A DNA stretch of 22,021 nt from a virus. The notes under the pieces are model-generated. The model did not search any database. It was not told the DNA's origin and saw only the letters and a program-made list of their open reading frames with translations. Where the stretch lies: IMG/VR virus record IMGVR_UViG_3300046001_007556, positions 1 to 22,021 of that record. The stretch is one strand, 5' to 3'. How positions within the stretch are numbered: the stretch's first letter is position 1; each line of letters opens with the position of its first letter. Shown one piece after another: positions 241 through 19,191 of the stretch. Position numbers and translations under genes: made by a program.

Positions 241-1095
241 ATGTTAGTAAAACATAACAAATTTAAAAATTCAGGATTATTATTTGAATTGCTAGTTAGA
301 CAGATTACAGCAGATACATTATCAGGTAAAGAATCACCAGCTGTTAATATACTTAAAAAATTCTTTGTTAAAACAGAATTAGGAAAAGAATATAAGTTAT
401 ATGATACTGTATTAAAACAATCCCAAATCACTGAAACCAAAGCCAATATTATTATTGATGAGGTATTAAAAGTATCTCGCAAATTAAATAGAACTACTTT
501 ACGTAAAGAAAAATATAATTTAATCAGTGAGATTAGAAAACATTACAACTTAGATGAGTTTTTCAAAACTAAACTCCCTCATTATAAATCACAAGCTGCT
601 TTATATACATTAATTGAAATATATAACAATCAAGAATTAACAAATCCTGATCAAATTATTTCAAATAAAATGACTTTGTTAGAAAGTTTAACAACTCAAC
701 CTGTTAAAGAAAAAGAAGTTAGAGATAATGTTATTGAGGAATTTAAAAAATACGATAAAGACTTACGCTTATTAACTTACCAAGTACTATTAGAAAAATT
801 TAATGGTAAATATGGTTCATTAAATGATAACCAAAAAGTTATACTAAGAGAATTTATCAACTCAGTAGACAATACTCCACGCTTACGTGAGTTTTATAAC
901 ACTAAAATAGTTGAAGTTAAAAATATATTATCTAAACTGATACCATCAGTGACTGATAAAGTTACCCAAATTAAACTTAACGAAGTGGTTTCATTAATTA
1001 AGGAAATAGATAAAACATCTAAAATATCAAATGATGATATTGTAAACTTACTACAATACTATTCATTGGTTGAAGAACTAAAATCAACTAAGTAA
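241..1095 (+). CDS. Conserved-looking head-module protein of unknown function (284 aa)
   Basis: I do not recognise a named family. The protein is mostly helical and highly charged (Lys/Glu/Asn), with no signal peptide, membrane segment or obvious catalytic motif. It starts with a compact hydrophobic stretch (KNSGLLFELLVRQIT, residues about 10-24), and later segments look like amphipathic helices. LLESL near residue 148 resembles a gp21-type (L/I)-x-E site. The ATG at 241 follows the promoter-like motif by 11 nt. The stop overlaps the next ATG by one base (TAATG), implying translational coupling. Its place between the upstream gene and the prohead protease suggests a head-assembly role, which is inference. 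Confidence 0.8.
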   Translation: MLVKHNKFKNSGLLFELLVRQITADTLSGKESPAVNILKKFFVKTELGKEYKLYDTVLKQSQITETKANIIIDEVLKVSRKLNRTTLRKEKYNLISEIRKHYNLDEFFKTKLPHYKSQAALYTLIEIYNNQELTNPDQIISNKMTLLESLTTQPVKEKEVRDNVIEEFKKYDKDLRLLTYQVLLEKFNGKYGSLNDNQKVILREFINSVDNTPRLREFYNTKIVEVKNILSKLIPSVTDKVTQIKLNEVVSLIKEIDKTSKISNDDIVNLLQYYSLVEELKSTK

Positions 1096-1658
1096 TGAAA
1101 TTATCTGAATTAAAAAAATTAGTTAAAGAAACACTACAAGAAATGTCTATGACTGGTGGTGGAACAGCTGGAGCTGCTTTTAGTGCTGGTGTTGGTATGA
1201 ATTACGCGACACCTAAAGCATTTAAAAAAGTAAAAGTAACTGAAGCTACACACCCATGGTACACTTCATTAAGAGGATATTATAAAGATGAAAAAAAAGC
1301 AGGAGAAGGACCTAGAGGTACAGGTAATGTATCTCAATATTTAAAACCTAATGCTATTGTTTATAATGCTAAAGGTGAATCAAAACGTATCAAAGATGTA
1401 ACAAGTTCTCATATTCAATTTGTTGATGGAACAGAAGATTACTTTATGAATTGGTTTACTGAAAAACCAGACTTATATGAAGCCTCAAATCCATACGGAA
1501 CTGGTAATTTAGGACCAGGTCCTAAAGCTGGTAAAGACGGAGTTAAAGATAATTACTACGTGAAAGCATTTGGTTTTAAACCTGTTAACCGTAAAAAACA
1601 AGCCAAAGCATCTAAAGCCATAGATTATAAAGACTTATGGGATGCTACATATAAATAA
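1095..1658 (+). CDS. Putative protease-processed head protein with a gp23-like N-terminal block (187 aa)
   Basis: The N-terminus (MKLSELKKLVKETLQE, residues 1-16) is a short amphipathic helix ending in L-Q-E, which fits the (L/I)-x-E cleavage rule of T4 gp21. Residues 20-34 (TGGGTAGAAFSAGVG) match residues 64-78 of the capsid protein in this window at 13 of 15 positions. In both proteins the block starts four residues after the predicted P1 glutamate. T4 internal head proteins carry removable N-terminal capsid-targeting peptides, so an internal or decorating head protein is a reasonable inference. The rest is basic and Gly/Lys-rich, with a central W-Y-T-S...Y-Y region. The start is fixed by the 1-nt TAATG overlap with the preceding gene. 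Confidence 0.75.
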   Translation: MKLSELKKLVKETLQEMSMTGGGTAGAAFSAGVGMNYATPKAFKKVKVTEATHPWYTSLRGYYKDEKKAGEGPRGTGNVSQYLKPNAIVYNAKGESKRIKDVTSSHIQFVDGTEDYFMNWFTEKPDLYEASNPYGTGNLGPGPKAGKDGVKDNYYVKAFGFKPVNRKKQAKASKAIDYKDLWDATYK

Positions 1659-1684: not shown

Positions 1685-2953
1685 ATGAGAAATACACTTC
1701 AAGAACAATACAATTTAATTAAAGAAGGTAAAGGCGCTAAGGATGTTTTCTTAAAACATGCTAAATCTTTATTTCCTAATTTAGTACCTAATCATTATGA
1801 ATTTGATTCTGCTTCTAAAATATTACTTCAACGTGGTATTATTTCAGAAAACATGATATTAAATGAAAATCTTTGGGGTATAGCAACAGGTAACAATAAA
1901 CAACCTGATTGGTTTAAATTGTTTGAAGAATACACTGCTTCATCTGAAGAAAAAGATACTAAAGCTGATGCTTCTAAAACATCTAAAGAAGTAGATGAGT
2001 ATAAAAATAAATCATACCACAACCAATACGAAGCAGAAACTGGTGATGATGTAATATTTGATCAATATTTACATGGTATCCAAATTGAAGCATGTAAATC
2101 AGAAAATAACGGTAAAACAGTTGATGAGTTAAAGAAAATTGTATTAAAGAATCTTAAAAAAGATAAATTATACTATACTAAAAATGCTGCTTTCAACACT
2201 GAAGGTATTGGTTATACAGAAGACGCTCCTGGTTTAGGTAAAACTAAAGAAGTAAAAGGTAAGTATGCTTCATCTGGTATGGAACCAGTTAAATTGAAAG
2301 AAGCTGTAATGTATGGTAGTTCAGATGGAGATAGAGATGCTGATATAGAATCTTCAGTTCAAGCTAATGAATATTATGAAAAAGGATTACAAGCATATTC
2401 TGAAGGTGATTTATTAAAAGCAGAACAATATTATAACGCCGCTTTAAAAGCTGGTGCTTGGTTAGGATGGACTGAATATGATTTACCACCGTATGAAACA
2501 ATGACAAAAGAAAATATGGATATTAAAGAATCTCAATTACGCACAGCTATTCGTCAATTAATTAAAGAAGAACTTAACTTAAAAGAAATCGATCAAATTG
2601 GTGAAGAAGCTGCTAAAGGAGCTAAAGTTAAGAAAATCAATGATGAGATCAATAAGCGTAAGAAAAAAATCAAAGCTTTAGAAACATTAAAAGAATTAGA
2701 AGACGATTCTATCAATCCTAAAAAATTAAAAGAATTATATTCTGAAATTAAAAAACTTGAGTCTGTTAAAACTAAACTTGAGAAAAAAGGTAAAAAGAAA
2801 GAACAGATTGTAGATGAAGTTACTGTTGTAGATAAAACTACTACAAGTGATGAAGTAGCTGATATAGTAAAACAAGAAAAAACTACACCAGCAGCAGTAA
2901 AAAAAGCAATAGATACTGCTAAATCTACTGGTGAACCTGTTAATGTAGCTTAA
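1685..2953 (+). CDS. Unassigned phage protein with one TPR-like motif and a coiled-coil C-terminus (422 aa)
   Basis: No family recognised. The N-terminal ~80 residues (LIKEGKGAKDVFLKHAKSLFP onwards) look like a compact helical domain. Residues 90-110 form a Lys/Asp/Ser-rich linker. Residues about 225-258 (NEYYEKGLQAYSEGD, KAEQYYNAALKAG) fit a single tetratricopeptide-like helical hairpin. QLRTAIRQLIKEELN (284-298) is an amphipathic helix like the N-terminus of the 187-aa neighbour. Residues about 300-375 are a Lys/Glu-rich coiled coil, followed by a low-complexity Thr/Val/Asp tail. The gene has its own short leader with a motif copy and ends 2 nt before the gp21 start. A head-core or assembly-accessory role is suggested only by position. 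Confidence 0.8.
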   Translation: MRNTLQEQYNLIKEGKGAKDVFLKHAKSLFPNLVPNHYEFDSASKILLQRGIISENMILNENLWGIATGNNKQPDWFKLFEEYTASSEEKDTKADASKTSKEVDEYKNKSYHNQYEAETGDDVIFDQYLHGIQIEACKSENNGKTVDELKKIVLKNLKKDKLYYTKNAAFNTEGIGYTEDAPGLGKTKEVKGKYASSGMEPVKLKEAVMYGSSDGDRDADIESSVQANEYYEKGLQAYSEGDLLKAEQYYNAALKAGAWLGWTEYDLPPYETMTKENMDIKESQLRTAIRQLIKEELNLKEIDQIGEEAAKGAKVKKINDEINKRKKKIKALETLKELEDDSINPKKLKELYSEIKKLESVKTKLEKKGKKKEQIVDEVTVVDKTTTSDEVADIVKQEKTTPAAVKKAIDTAKSTGEPVNVA

Positions 2954-2955
2954 TA

Positions 2956-3570
2956 ATGAAACAAGTATTAATAGAAACAATACCGTTTATTGTATCTCGT
3001 CAACAATTAACTGAGGGTGCTAAAACAGCTGCTGGCAATCCAGTTGTTGAAGGAATATTAGCTACAGCTGAAGTAAAAAACGGTAATGGTCGTTACTATA
3101 AAAAAGAATTATGGGAGCGTGAAATAGACAAATACATGTCTTGTGTTAAAGAAAATAGAGCGCTAGGTGAATTAGACCACCCAGAATCATCTATTATTAA
3201 TTTAAAAAACGTTTCTCATAACATAGTTGGTATATGGTGGGATGGAGACAAAGTAATGGGTAAATTAGAAATATTACCTACTCCATCTGGTAACATTGTT
3301 AAAGCACTTATTGATAACAATATAACTATAGGTGTATCTTCACGTGGTATGGGTAGTTTAAAACCATTAGGTGAAACAATGGAAGTACAAGATGATTTTG
3401 AATTATTATGTTGGGACTTTGTATCAACACCTTCTAACCCAGGTTCATGGATGCATGTGACTAAAAGTGGTTTAAACGAAGGTTTAACTAAAAACACTAA
3501 TCCATATACTAAAATAAATTCTATTATCACAGAAATACTTTGTGCTAATGGATCTTGCCCAATAATATAA
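2956..3570 (+). CDS. 21: Prohead core protease (T4 gp21-type)
   Basis: This is a serine protease of the T4 prohead-protease type, which matures scaffold and capsid proteins inside the prohead. Residues 32-50 (VEGILATAEV, NGNGRYYKKELW) are the typical opening. GELDHP (71-76) supplies the catalytic His75. GVSSRGMGS (126-134) carries the nucleophile, Ser128 or Ser129. WDFVSTPSNP (153-162) supplies the likely Asp154. The 204-aa length is close to T4 gp21 (about 212 aa). QQLTE|GAK at residues 16-23 could be a self-processing site. The gene starts 2 nt after the preceding stop and is followed by a strong terminator, so it is the last gene of its transcription unit. It sits directly before its substrates gp22 and gp23. 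Confidence 0.93.
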   Translation: MKQVLIETIPFIVSRQQLTEGAKTAAGNPVVEGILATAEVKNGNGRYYKKELWEREIDKYMSCVKENRALGELDHPESSIINLKNVSHNIVGIWWDGDKVMGKLEILPTPSGNIVKALIDNNITIGVSSRGMGSLKPLGETMEVQDDFELLCWDFVSTPSNPGSWMHVTKSGLNEGLTKNTNPYTKINSIITEILCANGSCPII

Positions 3571-3750: not shown

Positions 3751-3779
3751 TTTCCAAAAACAATTTGAGGACAAAAAAC

Positions 3780-5003
3780 ATGACAAACAGAGATTTGTTA
3801 AAAGAGGCTATTGCCGATGCAAAAGCAATCAAGGAGACTGCAATTGCAAATGCTAAAGCTGCTTTAGAAGAATCTTTCACACCTCATCTTAAATCTATTT
3901 TAGCTGCTAAAATCAATGAAATGGATAACTATTACGAAGAAGACGATGTAATGGAAGCAGAAAAAGAAGAAATGGATGAAATGAAAAAATCTGAAGAAGT
4001 AGAAGAAGCAAAGAAAGAAGAAGTAGAAGAAGTTGGTTTCGCTCAAGCGACAACTGGTGACTTCGTTGCTGACGCTGAAAGAGCTAAAGGCTACGGTTTA
4101 GAAGAAGAAGAAATGGAAGAAATTGATCTTGATGAACTTTTAGCTGAACTAGATGAAGCTAAAGAAGAAGAGATGGATGAAGCCAAGAAAGAAGAAATGG
4201 ATGAAACTGTAACTGAAGCTAAAGAAGAAGAAGGCGAAGAAGAAGAAGGTGAAGAAGAGGAAGGCGAAGAAGAGGAAGAAGAAGAAATCGATCTTGAAAA
4301 CATGAGTGAAGAAGATCTTAAAAACTTTATTGAAGGCGTAATCGAAGACATGATTGCTGCTGGAGAAATTGAAGCTGGCCATGAAGGTATGGAAGAAGAA
4401 GCTGAAGAAGAAGCAGAGATCGAAGAAGACATCAACATTGATGAAATCTTAGCTGAACTAAAAGGTGAAAAAGAAGTTGAAGAAGACATGATGAGTGGAG
4501 CTATGGGAGTATCTGCCGCTGGTGGAATGGCTGAATTAGCTAAAAAATTCAAACAAGGTCTTATTTCACTTAATGACTTTTTAGAAAAAGTAGCTGCCGC
4601 TCAATCATCTGGATTCAAAGCTAGTGTAGCAGAAGAAGAAATGGACGAAATGAAAAAAGAATTAGACGAAGCTTATGCTGCGATTAATACATTACGTTCA
4701 GAACTTAATGAAATCAACGTTCTAAATGCTAAACTTCTTTACACCAACAAAATTTTCAAAGCTAAAAACTTAACCGAATCAGAAAAAGTTAGAGTTTTAA
4801 CAGCATTTGACAAAGCTGCATCTAAAAAAGAAGCTCAATTAGTCTATGAAACATTATTAGAAGGTTTAAAAGATAAGAAACCTGCTATTAAAGAAAATCT
4901 AGGCCGTGCTTCAAAACCAGCGGGTGTTGCTCCAAGTAAAAAACCTATTGTAGAGTCTAATGACATGATCGCTAGATTCCAAAAGTTAGCTGGTATTATT
5001 TAA
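3780..5003 (+). CDS. 22: Prohead core scaffold protein (T4 gp22-type)
   Basis: This highly acidic, low-complexity protein is the expected internal scaffold around which gp23 assembles and which gp21 later degrades. Long Glu-rich stretches fill roughly residues 40-230. The C-terminal ~140 residues are a more balanced helical region ending in MIARFQKLAGII, typical of marine gp22 proteins. The length (407 aa) exceeds T4 gp22 (about 269), mostly through the acidic insert. I chose ATG 3780 over the in-frame TTG at 3765 because TTGAGGAC (GAGGA at 3767-3771) is a good Shine-Dalgarno about 8 nt upstream, the clearest one in the window. TLLE|GLK near the C-terminus is a candidate gp21 site. The assignment rests on composition, the C-terminus and position between gp21 and gp23. 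Confidence 0.88.
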   Translation: MTNRDLLKEAIADAKAIKETAIANAKAALEESFTPHLKSILAAKINEMDNYYEEDDVMEAEKEEMDEMKKSEEVEEAKKEEVEEVGFAQATTGDFVADAERAKGYGLEEEEMEEIDLDELLAELDEAKEEEMDEAKKEEMDETVTEAKEEEGEEEEGEEEEGEEEEEEEIDLENMSEEDLKNFIEGVIEDMIAAGEIEAGHEGMEEEAEEEAEIEEDINIDEILAELKGEKEVEEDMMSGAMGVSAAGGMAELAKKFKQGLISLNDFLEKVAAAQSSGFKASVAEEEMDEMKKELDEAYAAINTLRSELNEINVLNAKLLYTNKIFKAKNLTESEKVRVLTAFDKAASKKEAQLVYETLLEGLKDKKPAIKENLGRASKPAGVAPSKKPIVESNDMIARFQKLAGII

Positions 5004-5036: not shown

Positions 5037-6701
5037 ATGAACTCAATTCAAACTCTATTAGAAGGTGCTAACCCATGGAAAGCTCTTCAAAGTGATGCAG
5101 CTCGCTTGTCTGCTAAATGGAGCAAGACCGGTTTGTTAGAAGGTTTAAAAACAGAAACCGACAAAAACAACATGTCTATGATCCTTGAAAATCAAGCAAA
5201 ACAATTAGTAATGGAATCTTCACAAACTGGTGCTGGTACTGCAGGTGCTGCTTTTACCGCTGGTGTTGGTGAACAATGGGCTGGTGTAGCTCTTCCATTA
5301 GTACGTAAGGTGTTCGGACAGATCGCTGCTAAAGAATTCGTTAGCGTTCAACCTATGAACTTACCTTCAGGTCTAGTGTTTTTCTTAGACTTCCAATATG
5401 GTACAACTAAAGCTCCTTTCAACGCTGCTACTGGTGCTGGTTTCTACGGAACCGAATCTATGTATGGTGTTACTAACCCTGGTGCTAACACTGCTGCTAA
5501 TGGTGGTCTTTATGGTGCTGGTAGATTCTCATACTCTATCAACAACACTTCTTCAATTTTCTCAGGTACTGTAGCTACTGCTTCTTGGTCTGATTTTAAT
5601 TTTGATGCTAACTACTCAGCTTCAGCTGTAGCTAACGAGTGGAAAAAAGTAACTTTAGCTAATTTCCCAGCTACTACTGATTTCAATGGTGTACGCGCTT
5701 TCGTTATCAAAACTGGTTCAGTTCAATACACAGATGCTCAACAAGCTTTCACTACATCTCCAGGTGTAGTATTTGGTGGTTTACCAGCTTCTTGCTCGTT
5801 CTTAATCACTGGTAACTTGTTACCTCAATTAGCTACTATTGCTAACGTAACTGCTTCTTACCAATTACAACCAACTGATCAATTACGTGGTGACTTCGAA
5901 GATGGAAACACAAGCTTAAACACCTTGAACAACCCAATCTCTATCCCTGAAGTAAACGTTAAGATGAAATCAGAACCAATCGTTGCTAAAACTCGTAAGT
6001 TGAAAGCCGTTTGGACACCTGAGTTCGCTCAAGACTTAAACGCTTACCATGCATTAGACGCAGAAGCTGAATTAACTAGTATCATGAGTGAGTACATCTC
6101 TTTAGAGGTTGACTTAGAAATCTTAGATATGTTGATTGAAAACGCTTCAGCTGCTACTGAATACTGGTCAGCAATTAACAACATTGCTTTCACATCTGCT
6201 ACTGGAAACGGAACTACAACTAACTTAGGTTTCTATAACACTCAAGGTGGTTGGTTCCAAACCTTAGGTACCAAATTACAAAAAGTATCTAACATCATCC
6301 ATCAGAAAACTTTACGTGGTGGTGCAAATTTCTTAGTATGTTCTCCTACAGTTGCTACTGTTTTAGAATCAATCCCAGGATTTGCTACAACTTCTAAAGG
6401 TGATGCTGCTCAGATGACTTATGCATTTGGTGTTCAGAAAGTTGGTAACTTAAACAATCAGTATGACGTTTATAAAAACCCATACATGACTGAAAATACC
6501 ATCTTAATGGGCTTCAAAGGAAAACAATTCCTTGAAACTGGTGCTGTATTTGCTCCATACATTCCATTGATCATGACTCCGCTTGTGTACGATCCAGATA
6601 CCTTCACTCCACGTAAAGGTTTACTGACTCGCTACGCTAAGAAAATGGTTCGTCCTGAATTCTACGGTAAAGTCCTTGTTAGTGGATTAAACACTCTCTA
6701 A
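5037..6701 (+). CDS. 23: Major capsid protein (T4 gp23-type)
   Basis: The hexameric shell protein of the phage head, 554 aa against about 521 in T4. The N-terminal propeptide contains TLLE|GAN (residues 6-12) and GLLE|GLK (32-38). Maturation probably occurs at LVME60|SSQ, close in position to the known T4 cleavage at Glu65. Residues 104-122 (VQPMNLPSGLVFFLDFQYG) are the hallmark segment corresponding to T4 VQPMNSPTGQVF. The C-terminal part (LLTRYAKKMVRPEFYGKV) is also typical. The gene lies 33 nt after gp22 with no terminator or promoter motif between them, so both are probably cotranscribed. A strong terminator follows. Residues 64-78 are repeated almost exactly in the 187-aa protein at 1095. 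Confidence 0.96.
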   Translation: MNSIQTLLEGANPWKALQSDAARLSAKWSKTGLLEGLKTETDKNNMSMILENQAKQLVMESSQTGAGTAGAAFTAGVGEQWAGVALPLVRKVFGQIAAKEFVSVQPMNLPSGLVFFLDFQYGTTKAPFNAATGAGFYGTESMYGVTNPGANTAANGGLYGAGRFSYSINNTSSIFSGTVATASWSDFNFDANYSASAVANEWKKVTLANFPATTDFNGVRAFVIKTGSVQYTDAQQAFTTSPGVVFGGLPASCSFLITGNLLPQLATIANVTASYQLQPTDQLRGDFEDGNTSLNTLNNPISIPEVNVKMKSEPIVAKTRKLKAVWTPEFAQDLNAYHALDAEAELTSIMSEYISLEVDLEILDMLIENASAATEYWSAINNIAFTSATGNGTTTNLGFYNTQGGWFQTLGTKLQKVSNIIHQKTLRGGANFLVCSPTVATVLESIPGFATTSKGDAAQMTYAFGVQKVGNLNNQYDVYKNPYMTENTILMGFKGKQFLETGAVFAPYIPLIMTPLVYDPDTFTPRKGLLTRYAKKMVRPEFYGKVLVSGLNTL

Positions 6702-13714: not shown

Positions 13715-14680
13715 ATGGCAACTTGGAAAAAAGTCATAGTCTCAGGTAGTAATGCGGAACTATTAACAGTTACCTCATCATTTTTAGGAAACTTAACAGG
13801 AACAGCATCATATGCTACCAATGCTAATAGTTCATCTTATGCGTTAAATTCAACAAGTGCATCATACGCTTTAAACGCTACTAGTGCATCATATGCATTA
13901 AACGCTACTAGTGCCTCGTATGCGTTAAACGCTACTAGCGCATCATATGCATTAAACGCTACTACTGCTTCATATGTTTTAAATGCTGTTTCAAGTTCAT
14001 TCGCATCAACAGCCTCATTTGTAAATACTTTAAACCAAAATGTAATAATATCTGGTTCATTACAAGTAACTAATGGTATAACAGGTTCATTATTAGGAAC
14101 TGCTTCATACGCTGCTAATGCTAATAGTTCATCTTATGCTTTAAGCGCTTCATATGCTTTCAATTCAACTAGTGCTTCATATGCTGCCTCTGTTAATGAC
14201 TTAACAAATGCTATCACTAATAATGTTGATAATAGAGTAATAACAGCAACAGGTGGTGGCACTATAAATGGTGAATCAAATTTAACATTTGATGGTACCA
14301 CATTAACAGTAACTGGTAACGCTGTTATCACAAGTAACTTAACAGTACAAGGTACTGCTTCATTCCAAAATACCACAAACTTAGATGTAGCAGATAGATT
14401 TATATTATTAGCCTCAGGTTCAAATACAGCAGGTGATGGTGGTATAGTAGTACAACAAGGTACTCAAAATATAGGTGAATTATTTGGATTTGATAGTGGA
14501 ACTACAAGATGGGCATTTACAAGTTCATTTAATGGTGCTAGTAGTGCATTTACACCTGATGCTTTTGTGGCAGCAGCTGTTATAGGAGCAAATGCAGTTC
14601 CAACCTCAGCCCCAGCTAGATATCAAGTAGCAGGTAATATATTTATAGGTACAGACGAAAACATTTGGATTTATTCATAA
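13715..14680 (+). CDS. Repetitive fibre protein with WKKVIVSGS N-terminus (321 aa)
   Basis: The start, MATWKKVIVSGSNAEL, is shared with the 1321-aa fibre at 15226 (MPNWKKVIVSGSDAAL), so these are paralogues probably docked through the same N-terminal element. Residues about 39-92 are 9-residue repeats (SASYALNAT). Then come TLNQNVIISGSLQV and a second ITGSLLGTASYAANANSSSYAL block. The C-terminal ~130 residues form a beta domain with GGGTINGESNLTFDGTTLTVTGNAVITSNLTVQGTASF and a LDVADRFILLASGS segment. This layout is typical of trimeric phage fibres and structural 'GTASYA' proteins. The gene has its own promoter motif. The next small gene follows after 17 nt if its second ATG is used. Confidence 0.85.
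   Translation: MATWKKVIVSGSNAELLTVTSSFLGNLTGTASYATNANSSSYALNSTSASYALNATSASYALNATSASYALNATSASYALNATTASYVLNAVSSSFASTASFVNTLNQNVIISGSLQVTNGITGSLLGTASYAANANSSSYALSASYAFNSTSASYAASVNDLTNAITNNVDNRVITATGGGTINGESNLTFDGTTLTVTGNAVITSNLTVQGTASFQNTTNLDVADRFILLASGSNTAGDGGIVVQQGTQNIGELFGFDSGTTRWAFTSSFNGASSAFTPDAFVAAAVIGANAVPTSAPARYQVAGNIFIGTDENIWIYS
13829..13990 (+). repeat. Six tandem 27-bp coding repeats (SASYALNAT)
   Basis: Units at 13829, 13856, 13883, 13910, 13937 and 13964 each encode nine residues around S-A-S-Y-A-L-N-A-T. The four central units (13856-13963) encode identical peptides and differ only at third codon positions. The outer two units carry amino-acid changes. Confidence 0.9.
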
Positions 14681-15225: not shown

Positions 15226-18200
15226 ATGCCAAATTGGAAAAAAGTCATAGTTAGTGGCTCAGACGCTGCTTTAAATACATTAACCGTCTCAAACGGTATC
15301 ACAGGTTCACTTCAAGGAACTGCTTCATATGCTTCCAACGCTAATAGTTCATCTTACGCTTTAAGTGCTTCATACGCGTTAAACACCACTAGTGCTTCGT
15401 ATGCTTTAAACTCAACAAGCGCATCATATGCTTTATCAGCTTCTAATGCCGCTACAGCATCTTATGTTTTAAACGCAGTATCAAGTTCATTTGCATCAAC
15501 AGCCTCATCTGTAGATACTTTAAATCAAAATGTAATAATATCAGGTTCACTAACTATAGTTACAGGTTCAGGTATTGAATTGCAAGTATTAAATACTGGA
15601 GTAAGAATAGGTAATGTAATAGGTGATGCTCACTCAATAACAGGTAGTTTAGGTATAAGTGGTAGTGTAATTATAACTGGTTCTTCATTTTCAATTGTAT
15701 CTACAGCCGGTGCTACAAATACTGAATTTCAAGTTCTTAGTACAGGTACAAGAATAGGTAATGCCACAGGTGATACACATAATGTAACTGGTAGTTTAAG
15801 AATAAGTGGTAGTAACATAATAAGAGCTCTTACTAATGCTGCTACTCCTTTTCAAATTAATAGTCCAGCTAATGTTTCTATAGTTAGAATAAATGGTATA
15901 GGTGGAGTTGAAATTGGAGCTGATTCATCTGCTAGTGGTACAGGTTCATTTGCTCAAGGAGATTCTTTTGTAACAGCATTAGGTGATTATTCACATGCTC
16001 AAGGTAATAGCACAAATGCAGTAGGAATGGGTTCACATGCAGAAGGTGCTAGTACCGTTTCAACAGGAGACTTTTCACATGCTGAAGGTACTAGCACTAA
16101 TGCAATAGGAACTTATTCACATGCAGAAGGCAGTTCAACTCGAGCTGTTGGTGATTACTCACACGCTGAAGGTGAAGGTACAATAGCATCCGGTTCAGCC
16201 CAAACTGTAATGGGTAAATATAATACCCAAAATAATACAACATCATTAGTTATAATTGGTAATGGTGTTGATGATGGAACTAGAAGTGATTTAGCTTTAT
16301 TTAATACAAATCAAATAGTATTTAATGCTCCACTATCTGGTTCTTCATTTACAGGTTCATTATTAGGAACAGCAAGCTGGGCTAGTAATGCTGTTACTGC
16401 CTCATATGTTTTAAACGCAGTTTCAAGTTCCTTTGCTACAACAGCTTCCTATGTATTAAATGCAGTTTCAAGTTCATTTGCTACTACTGCTTCATATGTA
16501 CTAAACGCTGTTTCAAGTTCATTTGCTACAACTGCTTCCTACGTGTTGAATGCAGTTTCAAGTTCATTTGCCTTGACAGCCTCATTTGTCAATCCATTAA
16601 ATCAAAATGTTGTAATCACAGGCTCGCTAACTGTATTTACTGGATCAGGTGTTGAACTACAAGTAACTAATACTGGAGTAAATATAGGTAATGTTTCAAC
16701 AGATAACCATAATATCACTGGAGCAACACGAGTTACAGGAAGTCTAACAGTAACAGGTAGTGTTGTCTTAGGTGGACCCGCTCCATTTCAAAATTCAGTT
16801 TATATACAATCTAATTACGGAGTATCTTTTGCTGATATTGGTAATGCTAATGTAGCTATAGGAGCATCTGGTGTATTATATTTTGGTGGTGTGTTTCTTA
16901 CACCAAGTAGTATTAGGGCAAGTACTAGTGGTAACATGGTTTTAGCTAGTGATTCAACAGCTATAACCGGGTCAGGTAAATTACATATCAGAGGTGCAGG
17001 CGCTACATCAGCAACAAACGCTTTATATGTTGAAAACTCAGCAAATACAAATATACTTACCTTAAAAAATAATGGGTCTATGATAGTATGGCCAGCTGGT
17101 GGTGATGAATTTGCTGTTAGACCTCCCGCTTTTGTAAGTGACAATACTATGGGTTTTATCTTTAAACCAGGACCAAACTACGGAAATGATGATACATTTC
17201 TTTTTGGAGGTAGTAGATACGGAATATTTGCTCAAAATAATTCAAACGTAAATTCATTGAGATGGGCTACTGGTTATGGATATCAAATTACACAAGACTT
17301 AGTTGGAATATATGGTAACATACCATTTTGGCAAATGAATTTTTTTAGTCAATATGCTATGGCTCCAACTAGCGGAGATACATCACAATTAAATTCTAAT
17401 ATTTCATTTGCTCCATCAGCTGGTAGTGCCTCATTTGCGGTATTTAGTTTTAGACCAACTATTAATCAAACAGGTACAGCTACTGGTATTTCCCGCGGGT
17501 TGTATATTGCCCCTACATTAACATCAGCCTCTAGTTTTAGAGCCATTGAATGGACTAACAACAGTAATAGTTTTGGTTTATATGGTTCAGGCAGCGCTGC
17601 AAACGTATTACGTGGTAATACAACAATAGGTACATTAACTACAGGTTCAGCTACATTCAATGTGTCTGGCTCTAGTGATTTTAAAGGTAATGTGACAACA
17701 ACAGGTTCATTAAATGTTAGTTCAAATAGTTTAACTGTAAATATAGATAGTACAAATAATAATTGGGTTGGCGTTAATACAGCTACTTCTGCAAGTTATA
17801 TTAAGAATTTCCCATTAGTTGTTAAAGGTAATAATGCGAGTGATGCTTATGCCACTATTGCACTTGTAAATGACCAACCACTTATAAAATGGAAAGGTAC
17901 TTACAATAGTAGTAATGGAGCTGAATTATATCAAAATGGTAGTGGTACATTCTTATTAAATACTAATAGTAGTATATCTGGTTTTGCAATTTACTCAGAT
18001 GGTTCTCCAGCTTTTGCTTTATACGCTAGTACAAAAATGGTTGTTGGTGATACAGTAACACCAGCTTCGGCTCTTGGTAAACTTCATATTCGTGGTGGTG
18101 GTGCAACGTCAGCAACAAACGCTTTATATGTTCAAAACTCATCAGGTACCCAAGCATTAACAGTTAGAGATGATGGTCTTATTAGAATAGGAGAAACAGC

Positions 18201-19191
18201 AACAGATTTACAAATTACTCCTTCTTTGAGTAGAATTATATTTGCAAACCCAAATAGTAATGGTTTAATAGGATTTAGTAGTTACAATACATTCCTTACA
18301 CCAACAGGATTAAGACTATTCAGTAGGTCAACTATTGACGGCGGTGTAAATACATTAGGTGATTTTAGATTTTATAATGTGACTACTGCCAAAACCTATA
18401 TGTATATAACTGAAACTGGTAAAATCAGTATCAACAAAGGTACAGTAACACCAAATGCTGACTTAGATGTAAGTGGTAGTGTTATTATAACAGGCTCACT
18501 AACAGTAATAACTGGTTCTGCTGTTGAACTACAAGTATTAAATACTGGAGTGAATATAGGAAACGTAGTTGGAGATACCCATACTGTAACAGGTAGTTTA
18601 GGAGTAAGTGGCTCAAGTAATTTTAGAGGGAATATAATAATAACAGGCTCAGCCAACAACTCACTAAGAGTAAGAGGCTCAGGTACCACATCAGCAACAA
18701 CTGCATTATATATTGAAAACTCAAGCGCTGCTAAATCTTTTCAAGTAGCAGATGATGGTAAACTCTTTTTAAGAGATATTACAGATGAAAGTGGTGAATA
18801 TGGTTTATATTGGTTTAATACTGGAACTAGTTATGGAATCTATAAAACAACAGGCTCATGGAGTGCTCCAAATTATACACAGTTAAAAGTAGATTTTCCT
18901 ACTGGTATTATCATTGATGGTGGTGATGCGTACGGTAAGAGTGGTACTGTAATCCAACCTAGTTCTGGTAATGTAGGTATAGGTACATCATCACCCTCAG
19001 CTAAATTACATGTTGATGGTACAGTAAGAATAGATAACCAAAATAGTTCAACACCTACTGGTCCAAATGCTTCAGCAGGTACAGTCACTAACTACTGGGG
19101 TACAGCCGATGGAACATTTTTAAGTACACCATCTACATGGTTAAAAATAAATTTAGGTGGAACTGATTATTATTTACCAGCGTATCAATAA
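15226..19191 (+). CDS. Giant repetitive tail fibre / adhesin (1321 aa)
   Basis: Starts MPNWKKVIVSGSDAAL, shared with the fibre at 13715. In order it holds GTASYASNANSSSYAL repeats, two ELQV/FQV blocks (about 15541-15815), six YSHAEG-type units ending in QTVMGKYN (15943-16223), four 15-residue repeats (16402-16581) and further ELQV blocks near 16617 and 18490. Three ALYVENS/ALYVQNS blocks lie near 16975, 18076 and 18661. GNVGIGTSSPSAKLHVDGTVR, a common fibre motif, comes near the C-terminus, which ends STWLKINLGGTDYYLPAYQ. The middle (about 17080-17600) is a less repetitive domain and a candidate receptor-binding part. No S74 chaperone domain is visible. It is almost certainly a trimeric, receptor-facing fibre. 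The stop overlaps the next ATG by 1 nt. Confidence 0.9.
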   Translation: MPNWKKVIVSGSDAALNTLTVSNGITGSLQGTASYASNANSSSYALSASYALNTTSASYALNSTSASYALSASNAATASYVLNAVSSSFASTASSVDTLNQNVIISGSLTIVTGSGIELQVLNTGVRIGNVIGDAHSITGSLGISGSVIITGSSFSIVSTAGATNTEFQVLSTGTRIGNATGDTHNVTGSLRISGSNIIRALTNAATPFQINSPANVSIVRINGIGGVEIGADSSASGTGSFAQGDSFVTALGDYSHAQGNSTNAVGMGSHAEGASTVSTGDFSHAEGTSTNAIGTYSHAEGSSTRAVGDYSHAEGEGTIASGSAQTVMGKYNTQNNTTSLVIIGNGVDDGTRSDLALFNTNQIVFNAPLSGSSFTGSLLGTASWASNAVTASYVLNAVSSSFATTASYVLNAVSSSFATTASYVLNAVSSSFATTASYVLNAVSSSFALTASFVNPLNQNVVITGSLTVFTGSGVELQVTNTGVNIGNVSTDNHNITGATRVTGSLTVTGSVVLGGPAPFQNSVYIQSNYGVSFADIGNANVAIGASGVLYFGGVFLTPSSIRASTSGNMVLASDSTAITGSGKLHIRGAGATSATNALYVENSANTNILTLKNNGSMIVWPAGGDEFAVRPPAFVSDNTMGFIFKPGPNYGNDDTFLFGGSRYGIFAQNNSNVNSLRWATGYGYQITQDLVGIYGNIPFWQMNFFSQYAMAPTSGDTSQLNSNISFAPSAGSASFAVFSFRPTINQTGTATGISRGLYIAPTLTSASSFRAIEWTNNSNSFGLYGSGSAANVLRGNTTIGTLTTGSATFNVSGSSDFKGNVTTTGSLNVSSNSLTVNIDSTNNNWVGVNTATSASYIKNFPLVVKGNNASDAYATIALVNDQPLIKWKGTYNSSNGAELYQNGSGTFLLNTNSSISGFAIYSDGSPAFALYASTKMVVGDTVTPASALGKLHIRGGGATSATNALYVQNSSGTQALTVRDDGLIRIGETATDLQITPSLSRIIFANPNSNGLIGFSSYNTFLTPTGLRLFSRSTIDGGVNTLGDFRFYNVTTAKTYMYITETGKISINKGTVTPNADLDVSGSVIITGSLTVITGSAVELQVLNTGVNIGNVVGDTHTVTGSLGVSGSSNFRGNIIITGSANNSLRVRGSGTTSATTALYIENSSAAKSFQVADDGKLFLRDITDESGEYGLYWFNTGTSYGIYKTTGSWSAPNYTQLKVDFPTGIIIDGGDAYGKSGTVIQPSSGNVGIGTSSPSAKLHVDGTVRIDNQNSSTPTGPNASAGTVTNYWGTADGTFLSTPSTWLKINLGGTDYYLPAYQ
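15943..16223 (+). repeat. YSHAEG-type 42-bp coding repeats in the giant fibre
   Basis: Six 14-residue units (FAQGDSF, YSHAQG, GSHAEG, FSHAEG, YSHAEG, YSHAEG) closed by AQTVMGKYN. The architecture matches the array in the fibre at 7881, including the closing G-x-YN element, so the two proteins share a beta-roll module. Confidence 0.85.
16402..16581 (+). repeat. Four tandem 45-bp coding repeats (SYVLNAVSSSFATTA)
   Basis: Units at 16402, 16447, 16492 and 16537 each encode 15 residues. Differences between the first three units are synonymous only; the fourth ends in ALTA rather than ATTA. Confidence 0.88.

Follow-up and report, generated by a model that had tools for sequence, protein, structure and literature searches.

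The window (the whole stretch of viral DNA analysed, 22,021 nucleotides) contains T4-type head genes, with a gp21-type protease, gp23, PhoH and a tail sheath protein recognized in these 22 kb using Pfam and PHROG. By gp23, the closest isolated relative is Flavobacterium phage immuto (57.6%), and the host group of the phage is probably Bacteroidota. The gene for a 187-aa protein, p187, lies upstream of gp21 (Table 1), which can be compared with the order gp20-[67-68]-gp21-gp22-gp23; gp20 does not fall within the window, and the only place where it was observed is the annotated genome of immuto, whose p187 family member is QQO91878.1. The genes for the T4 prohead core proteins gp67 and gp68 are likewise found just upstream of gp21, but homology of p187 to either protein was rejected, as blastp, hmmsearch and hhalign gave matches at chance level. 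Searches of Pfam and PHROG with p187 and its relatives returned nothing reliable, and a PDB sequence search gave chance matches only. Elsewhere in the window, the 422-aa p422 has another targeting-peptide-like stretch (LRTAIRQLIKEEL), and fibre-like proteins (13715-14680 and 15226-19191) have tandem repeats of the SASYALNATSASYALN type.

Table 1. Features discussed in the text. Positions are those of the window, except in the last row.
Feature	Position	Strand	Basis or remark
p284, conserved neighbour 5' of p187	241..1095	+	synteny in most loci
p187 (187 aa), predicted internal/core head protein	1095..1658	+	between p284 and gp21 region
p187 predicted propeptide/capsid-targeting helix, residues 1-16, ends LQE16	1095..1142	+	AF2 helix 3-17; Glu16 invariant
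p187 LQE16 Glu codon	1140-1142		
p187 predicted mature N-terminus, M17	1143		
p187 block (capsid arm copy), residues 20-34	1152..1196	+	
p187 conserved basic stretch after arm copy, MNYATPKAFKKVKV	1197..1238	+	most conserved motif of the family
p187 predicted second gp21-type site, VTE50	1236..1244	+	[LIVM]xE scan; sites flank inserts in relatives
p187 swappable middle module, residues 51-129	1245..1481	+	missing or different in relatives
p187 predicted third gp21-type site, LYE129	1473..1481	+	[LIVM]xE scan
p187 conserved C-terminal part (ASNPYGTGNLGPGPKAGKDGVKDNYYVKAF...DYKDLW)	1482..1655	+	family comparison
p422, possible core protein adjoining gp21	1685..2953	+	position only
gp21-type prohead protease	2956..3570	+	PF03420 E=1e-28; phrog_207
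Acidic gp22-like scaffold candidate	3765..5003	+	position and composition only
gp23 major capsid protein	5037..6701	+	PF07068 E=1.5e-76; phrog_138; T4 gp23 structures
gp23 predicted propeptide, residues 1-60, ends VME60	5037..5216	+	Glu60 invariant; counterpart of T4 LTE65
gp23 VME60 Glu codon	5214-5216		
gp23 N-terminal arm after site, residues 61-81	5217..5279	+	at T4 N-fist position
gp23 block, residues 64-78	5226-5270	+	
T4 gene 61.1 (gp61.1, 54 aa, hypothetical; NP_049649.1)	NC_000866 18966-19130 (L195 1467-1631)		

The block that an earlier note had reported as duplicated between the two proteins is a real match, with 13 of 15 residues identical between p187 residues 20-34 (TGGGTAGAAFSAGVG) and gp23 residues 64-78 (TGAGTAGAAFTAGVG). 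The equal spacing that it described was also recovered: in each protein, exactly three residues lie between the Glu (LQE16, VME60) and the block. The interval 1134-1196, under which the duplication had been recorded, runs from L14 through the end of the block. The likeness extends slightly further, up to an aromatic residue (GVGEQW in one protein and GVGMNY in the other). The local BLOSUM62 score of p187 against gp23 is 89, a value reached by none of 5,000 shuffles of p187 (36.5 +/- 5.6), of which the lone high scorer was a long gapped alignment unlike the p187/gp23 match; a separate set of 500 shuffles had one maximum of 92. None of the other window proteins matches the block at more than 7 of 15 positions.

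By its layout (a helical 16-aa propeptide, an [LIV]xE site, the arm copy, a basic tail and a swappable middle module with flanking predicted sites), p187 looks like a T4-type internal head protein. Such proteins are recognized by a hydrophobic-X-Glu propeptide end, a gp21/head gene context and a basic mature protein, and p187 has all three (mature pI 9.5). The AlphaFold models are of low confidence (pLDDT 51 for p187 and 59.5 for gp23), including the arm/block region; the p187 propeptide is predicted as a helix. That the removed 16-mer could be a capsid-targeting signal, as proposed earlier, is plausible given this predicted helix and the T4 precedents. The T4 gp21 motif is L/I-X-E (PMC9026906), while the predicted gp23 site here has V rather than L or I at P3. 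The T4 proteins IPI, IPII, IPIII and Alt resemble p187 in having a short propeptide with a gp21-type L/I-X-E end, a basic body and variable content (PMC9026906). Unlike p187, they are not described as having a copy of the capsid's mature N-terminus, and only in p187 does the variable module lie within the chain, between further predicted sites.

Relatives were collected as 39 matches to p187 from three viral scans, followed by 80 gp23-anchored and 80 profile-anchored loci. Family members are present in 159 loci (116 distinct sequences), and the recurrent gene order, syntenic in most loci, is p284 - p187 - (p422) - gp21 - gp22 - gp23. The predicted P1 Glu is conserved in both proteins (gp23 Glu60 is invariant in 49 aligned sequences and p187 Glu16 in 35), and in the p187 family 49 of 53 lineage representatives have a hydrophobic P3 residue (L/V/I/M) before it. 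The earlier note would have been contradicted by homologues without the Glu and the block. This applies in part: 17 of the 53 lineages have the short form E^MSTSGGAGGYLTxxAF (with ^ after the Glu), in which the Glu is kept and the block is mostly missing, and in these the long block is dispensable or replaced.

The family is also modular. The spacing between the basic ATPxAF motif and LGPGP is mostly 10-16 residues, but some members have inserts of ~67-231 residues. The long inserts are unrelated, and nearly all have [LIVMF]xE motifs near both ends; the corresponding insert of the window p187 is 51-129, between VTE50 and LYE129. In many family members a different domain of ~110 residues or longer precedes the block. 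The p187-family modules that were tested have no recognizable relatives.

In the ORFs of ~190 loci, an arm/block profile matched 245 ORFs of the gp23 or p187 families. The remaining matches in these loci were few and at chance (best E 0.48), with no third gene having the block. On contigs of 128, 155 and 170 kb the profile found exactly two copies each (confirmed for the 155 kb contig).

The sequence after the Glu differs widely among phages, yet it differs jointly in the two proteins. In locus L102, gp23 has ...GSAAFSANVGTGEQW and the p187-family protein ...GSASFSSNVGTGAQY; the corresponding pairs are E^SNQIASNSFYTSGGQGENW and E^ESTIASNSFFTSGGEGENH in L162 and ...GGATFTPGTGEQW and ...GGATFTPGTGEQM in L118. 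Rare lineage-specific signatures are common to both copies, such as FSANVGTGEQ/FSSNVGTGAQ in L102 and IASNSFYTSGGQGEN/IASNSFFTSGGEGEN in L162. Across 36 divergent gp23 lineages, arm-block similarity is 54.6 within the same genome and 33.9 between genomes, with none of 20,000 permutations as high. The correlation persists in a partial Mantel test given the gp23 body (r=0.50, 36 lineage representatives) and when gp21, p284 and the p187 tail are included as well (partial r=0.49). Swapping copies between disjoint nearest sister pairs favoured the native pairing 13:3 (Wilcoxon p=0.0017). The own-genome effect is at the clade level; among close relatives (gp23 body identity of at least 75%) the preference was not significant (p=0.15). 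The lengths of arm and block are weakly correlated (rho 0.29, p=0.087).

Both segments are low in complexity and predicted to be flexible, and the arm is rich in Gly/Ser/Thr, so that two linkers exposed by cleavage might have converged without being related. The own-genome specificity under permutation and the rare signatures common to both proteins of a genome (L102, L162) make such convergence extremely improbable. An old duplication followed by independent drift was also rejected, as the likeness of a genome's own arm and block exceeds that of arms or blocks between clades: for the core, own arm-block similarity is 45.6, against 34.1 for block-block and 24.4 for arm-arm comparisons between clades, and in 34 of 36 lineages the arm core is closer to its own block than to the arms of other clades. 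Gene conversion between gp23 and p187 was rejected as well. None was detectable, with identical codons at 208 of 397 matched residues (195.6 +/- 9.7 expected); this is the chance level, so that selection on the protein is apparently what maintains the match. This bears on the view that the block is a functionless duplicate of a gp23 segment, held similar by recombination or drift. The block DNA of the window, identical at 38 of 45 positions (with different codons at 4 of the 13 identical residues), is what such a duplicate might look like, but the chance level of codon identity at identical residues, the matching of the copies across lineages with gp23 body identity of 53-83% and the similar layouts in T4 and cyanophages described below leave it very little probability.

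When the T4 gp23 arm was searched against the T4 genome, one other match was found, gene 61.1. Its product can be aligned gap-free and in identical register (MKTFKEFIKE^DMVAGDSGGNPENISIGTTSGAVVNKGP) with T4 gp23 after LTE65 (LTE^AEIGGDHGYNATNIAAGQTSGAVTQIGP), with a score of 82 (shuffles 29.2 +/- 4.4); around the IKE site it reads MKTFKEFIKE^DMVAGDSGGNPENISIGTTSGAVVNKGPEQIPKKKK... Like p187, gp61.1 has a stretch resembling a capsid-targeting sequence (MKTFKEFIKE), a Glu, the gp23 N-fist copied in register and a basic tail. Unlike p187, its gene adjoins the primase gene 61, outside the head cluster, and the likeness recognized is one of layout. Homologues of gp61.1 are found in 1,387 phage records, some labelled 'major capsid domain-containing' or 'head morphogenesis', and some have a long N-terminal domain. 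In ten Straboviridae, own-genome and cross-genome similarity did not differ significantly (p=0.14) because the arms are nearly invariant. The protein was not found in the portion of the T4 head composition table consulted, and in the literature searched gp61.1 occurs only in two gene lists. A T4-type late-promoter-like sequence, TATAAATA, lies close 5' of gp61.1 in several relatives (L197 ~130, L198 ~130, L201 ~113), beside replication gene 61; it is absent in T4.

In the cyanophages syn9 (YP_717860.1) and P-SSM4 (YP_214724.1), the gp23 arm is copied at the start of a ~175-aa protein (score 103, against about 33 +/- 4.7), and homologues are found in 283 records. Products named 'major head protein' in cyanophages (L237 130-654, L238 137-676) start with the arm copy, and these names probably derive from this short stretch. 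Such proteins (syn9, P-SSM4, T4-GC 426) resemble p187 in having the arm copy at the N-terminus followed by a basic stretch, and differ from it in a propeptide of no more than about 3 residues and a different ~150-aa body. The same search found no second arm copy in Sinorhizobium phage phiN3 or Microcystis phage Mel-JY01. The window, the 36 lineages, T4, syn9 and P-SSM4 all have a copy of the own-genome gp23 arm at a fixed distance behind a Glu. We propose these capsid-arm copy proteins as a class, with putative binding to gp23 arm sites.

The earlier note had offered two explanations of the shared block, recognition by gp21 or a common binding interface. According to the first, the block would be a P'-side recognition element, both proteins needing the residues after the Glu for efficient cutting. 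In its favour, the block of both proteins stands in exact register with a Glu that is invariant, and the T4 L/I-X-E motif is very short on its own; furthermore, the Glu is kept even in syn9 and P-SSM4, where a cut would take off no more than about 3 residues. However, more substrates should carry the block if it were a general protease motif: gp21 should also cut gp22 and further core proteins, but no other ORF has the block, and the predicted sites flanking the middle modules lack it. Neither segment tracks gp21 divergence beyond phylogeny (partial r 0.13 for block and gp21, -0.39 for arm and gp21), and the cyanophage S-RIM2 has a weaker, degenerate copy at a natural N-terminus without an upstream Glu. 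Based on the two-gene restriction and the lack of gp21 tracking, a generic gp21 motif was rejected as the main role of the block, and the recognition element itself is unlikely.

The evidence favours the second explanation, as the block corresponds in position to the T4 N-fist and changes along with the gp23 arm encoded in the same genome. Aligned to T4 gp23*, it falls within residues ~66-90. The T4 N-fist comprises gp23 66-91 (the ~25 first mature residues); it makes stabilizing inter-capsomer contacts and is disordered facing the portal (PMC7136217). During T4 expansion, disordered gp23 N-terminal regions shift outward and become ordered (PMC9958956). The N-arm/N-fist of T4 gp23* (5VF3) is the same segment as the gp23 block here, the difference being that here it is also found on a second, non-capsid protein. 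Because this second head protein would expose the capsid's own clamp peptide, docking at the gp23 arm sites is the simplest reading. We consider it somewhat more likely than not that p187 is an internal head protein and that its arm copy, exposed after a gp21 cut, docks there and so fastens p187 to the shell. The predicted VTE50 site counts against docking, as a cut there would separate the arm copy from the remainder of p187.

The proposed model for p187 is as follows. The 16-residue helical propeptide would bring p187 into the prohead, where gp21 may cut after LQE16 and remove it. The predicted cut would expose an N-terminus that nearly repeats the first ~20 residues of mature gp23 from the same phage. 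This copied arm may then dock in the inter-subunit gp23 groove used by gp23's own arm, possibly where a gp23 arm is absent, beside the portal or the vertices. Once docked, it would hold the basic body of p187 at the inner shell, together with whatever cargo module is inserted. Alternatively, the common partner of arm and block while the prohead assembles could be a third protein instead of gp23, such as the gp22 scaffold, some other core protein or a chaperone of assembly. This would likewise yield protein-level co-variation limited to two genes, and the T4 gp23 N-terminus is disordered within the prohead before expansion (PMC9958956). The segment stays after cleavage, however, and its known T4 contacts are gp23 subunits, so that we give a third partner a small but appreciable probability.

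More tentatively, an overlooked small protein (the p187 family, T4 gp61.1, cyanophage T4-GC 426) may be common in T4-superfamily heads. It would supply a copied N-fist in trans, which would occupy arm-docking sites of the expanding shell or compete for them and would tether modular, protease-excisable cargo to the shell. The joint change of the two copies across phages and the similar second protein of T4 and cyanophages point to a docking tag in general use inside T4-type heads. If docking is correct, T4-type phages use a duplicate of the capsid's clamp peptide to fix a second protein to the capsid. It would also suggest a role for the uncharacterized gene 61.1 of T4, which has homologues in more than a thousand phage records, account for the 'major head protein' and 'major capsid domain-containing' names on some small cyanophage and coliphage proteins, and provide a natural tag to attach cargo inside T4 heads. 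The unrelated inserted and N-terminal modules of the p187 family (window 1245-1481; L007, L018, L143, L145 and others) are candidates for packaged cargo.
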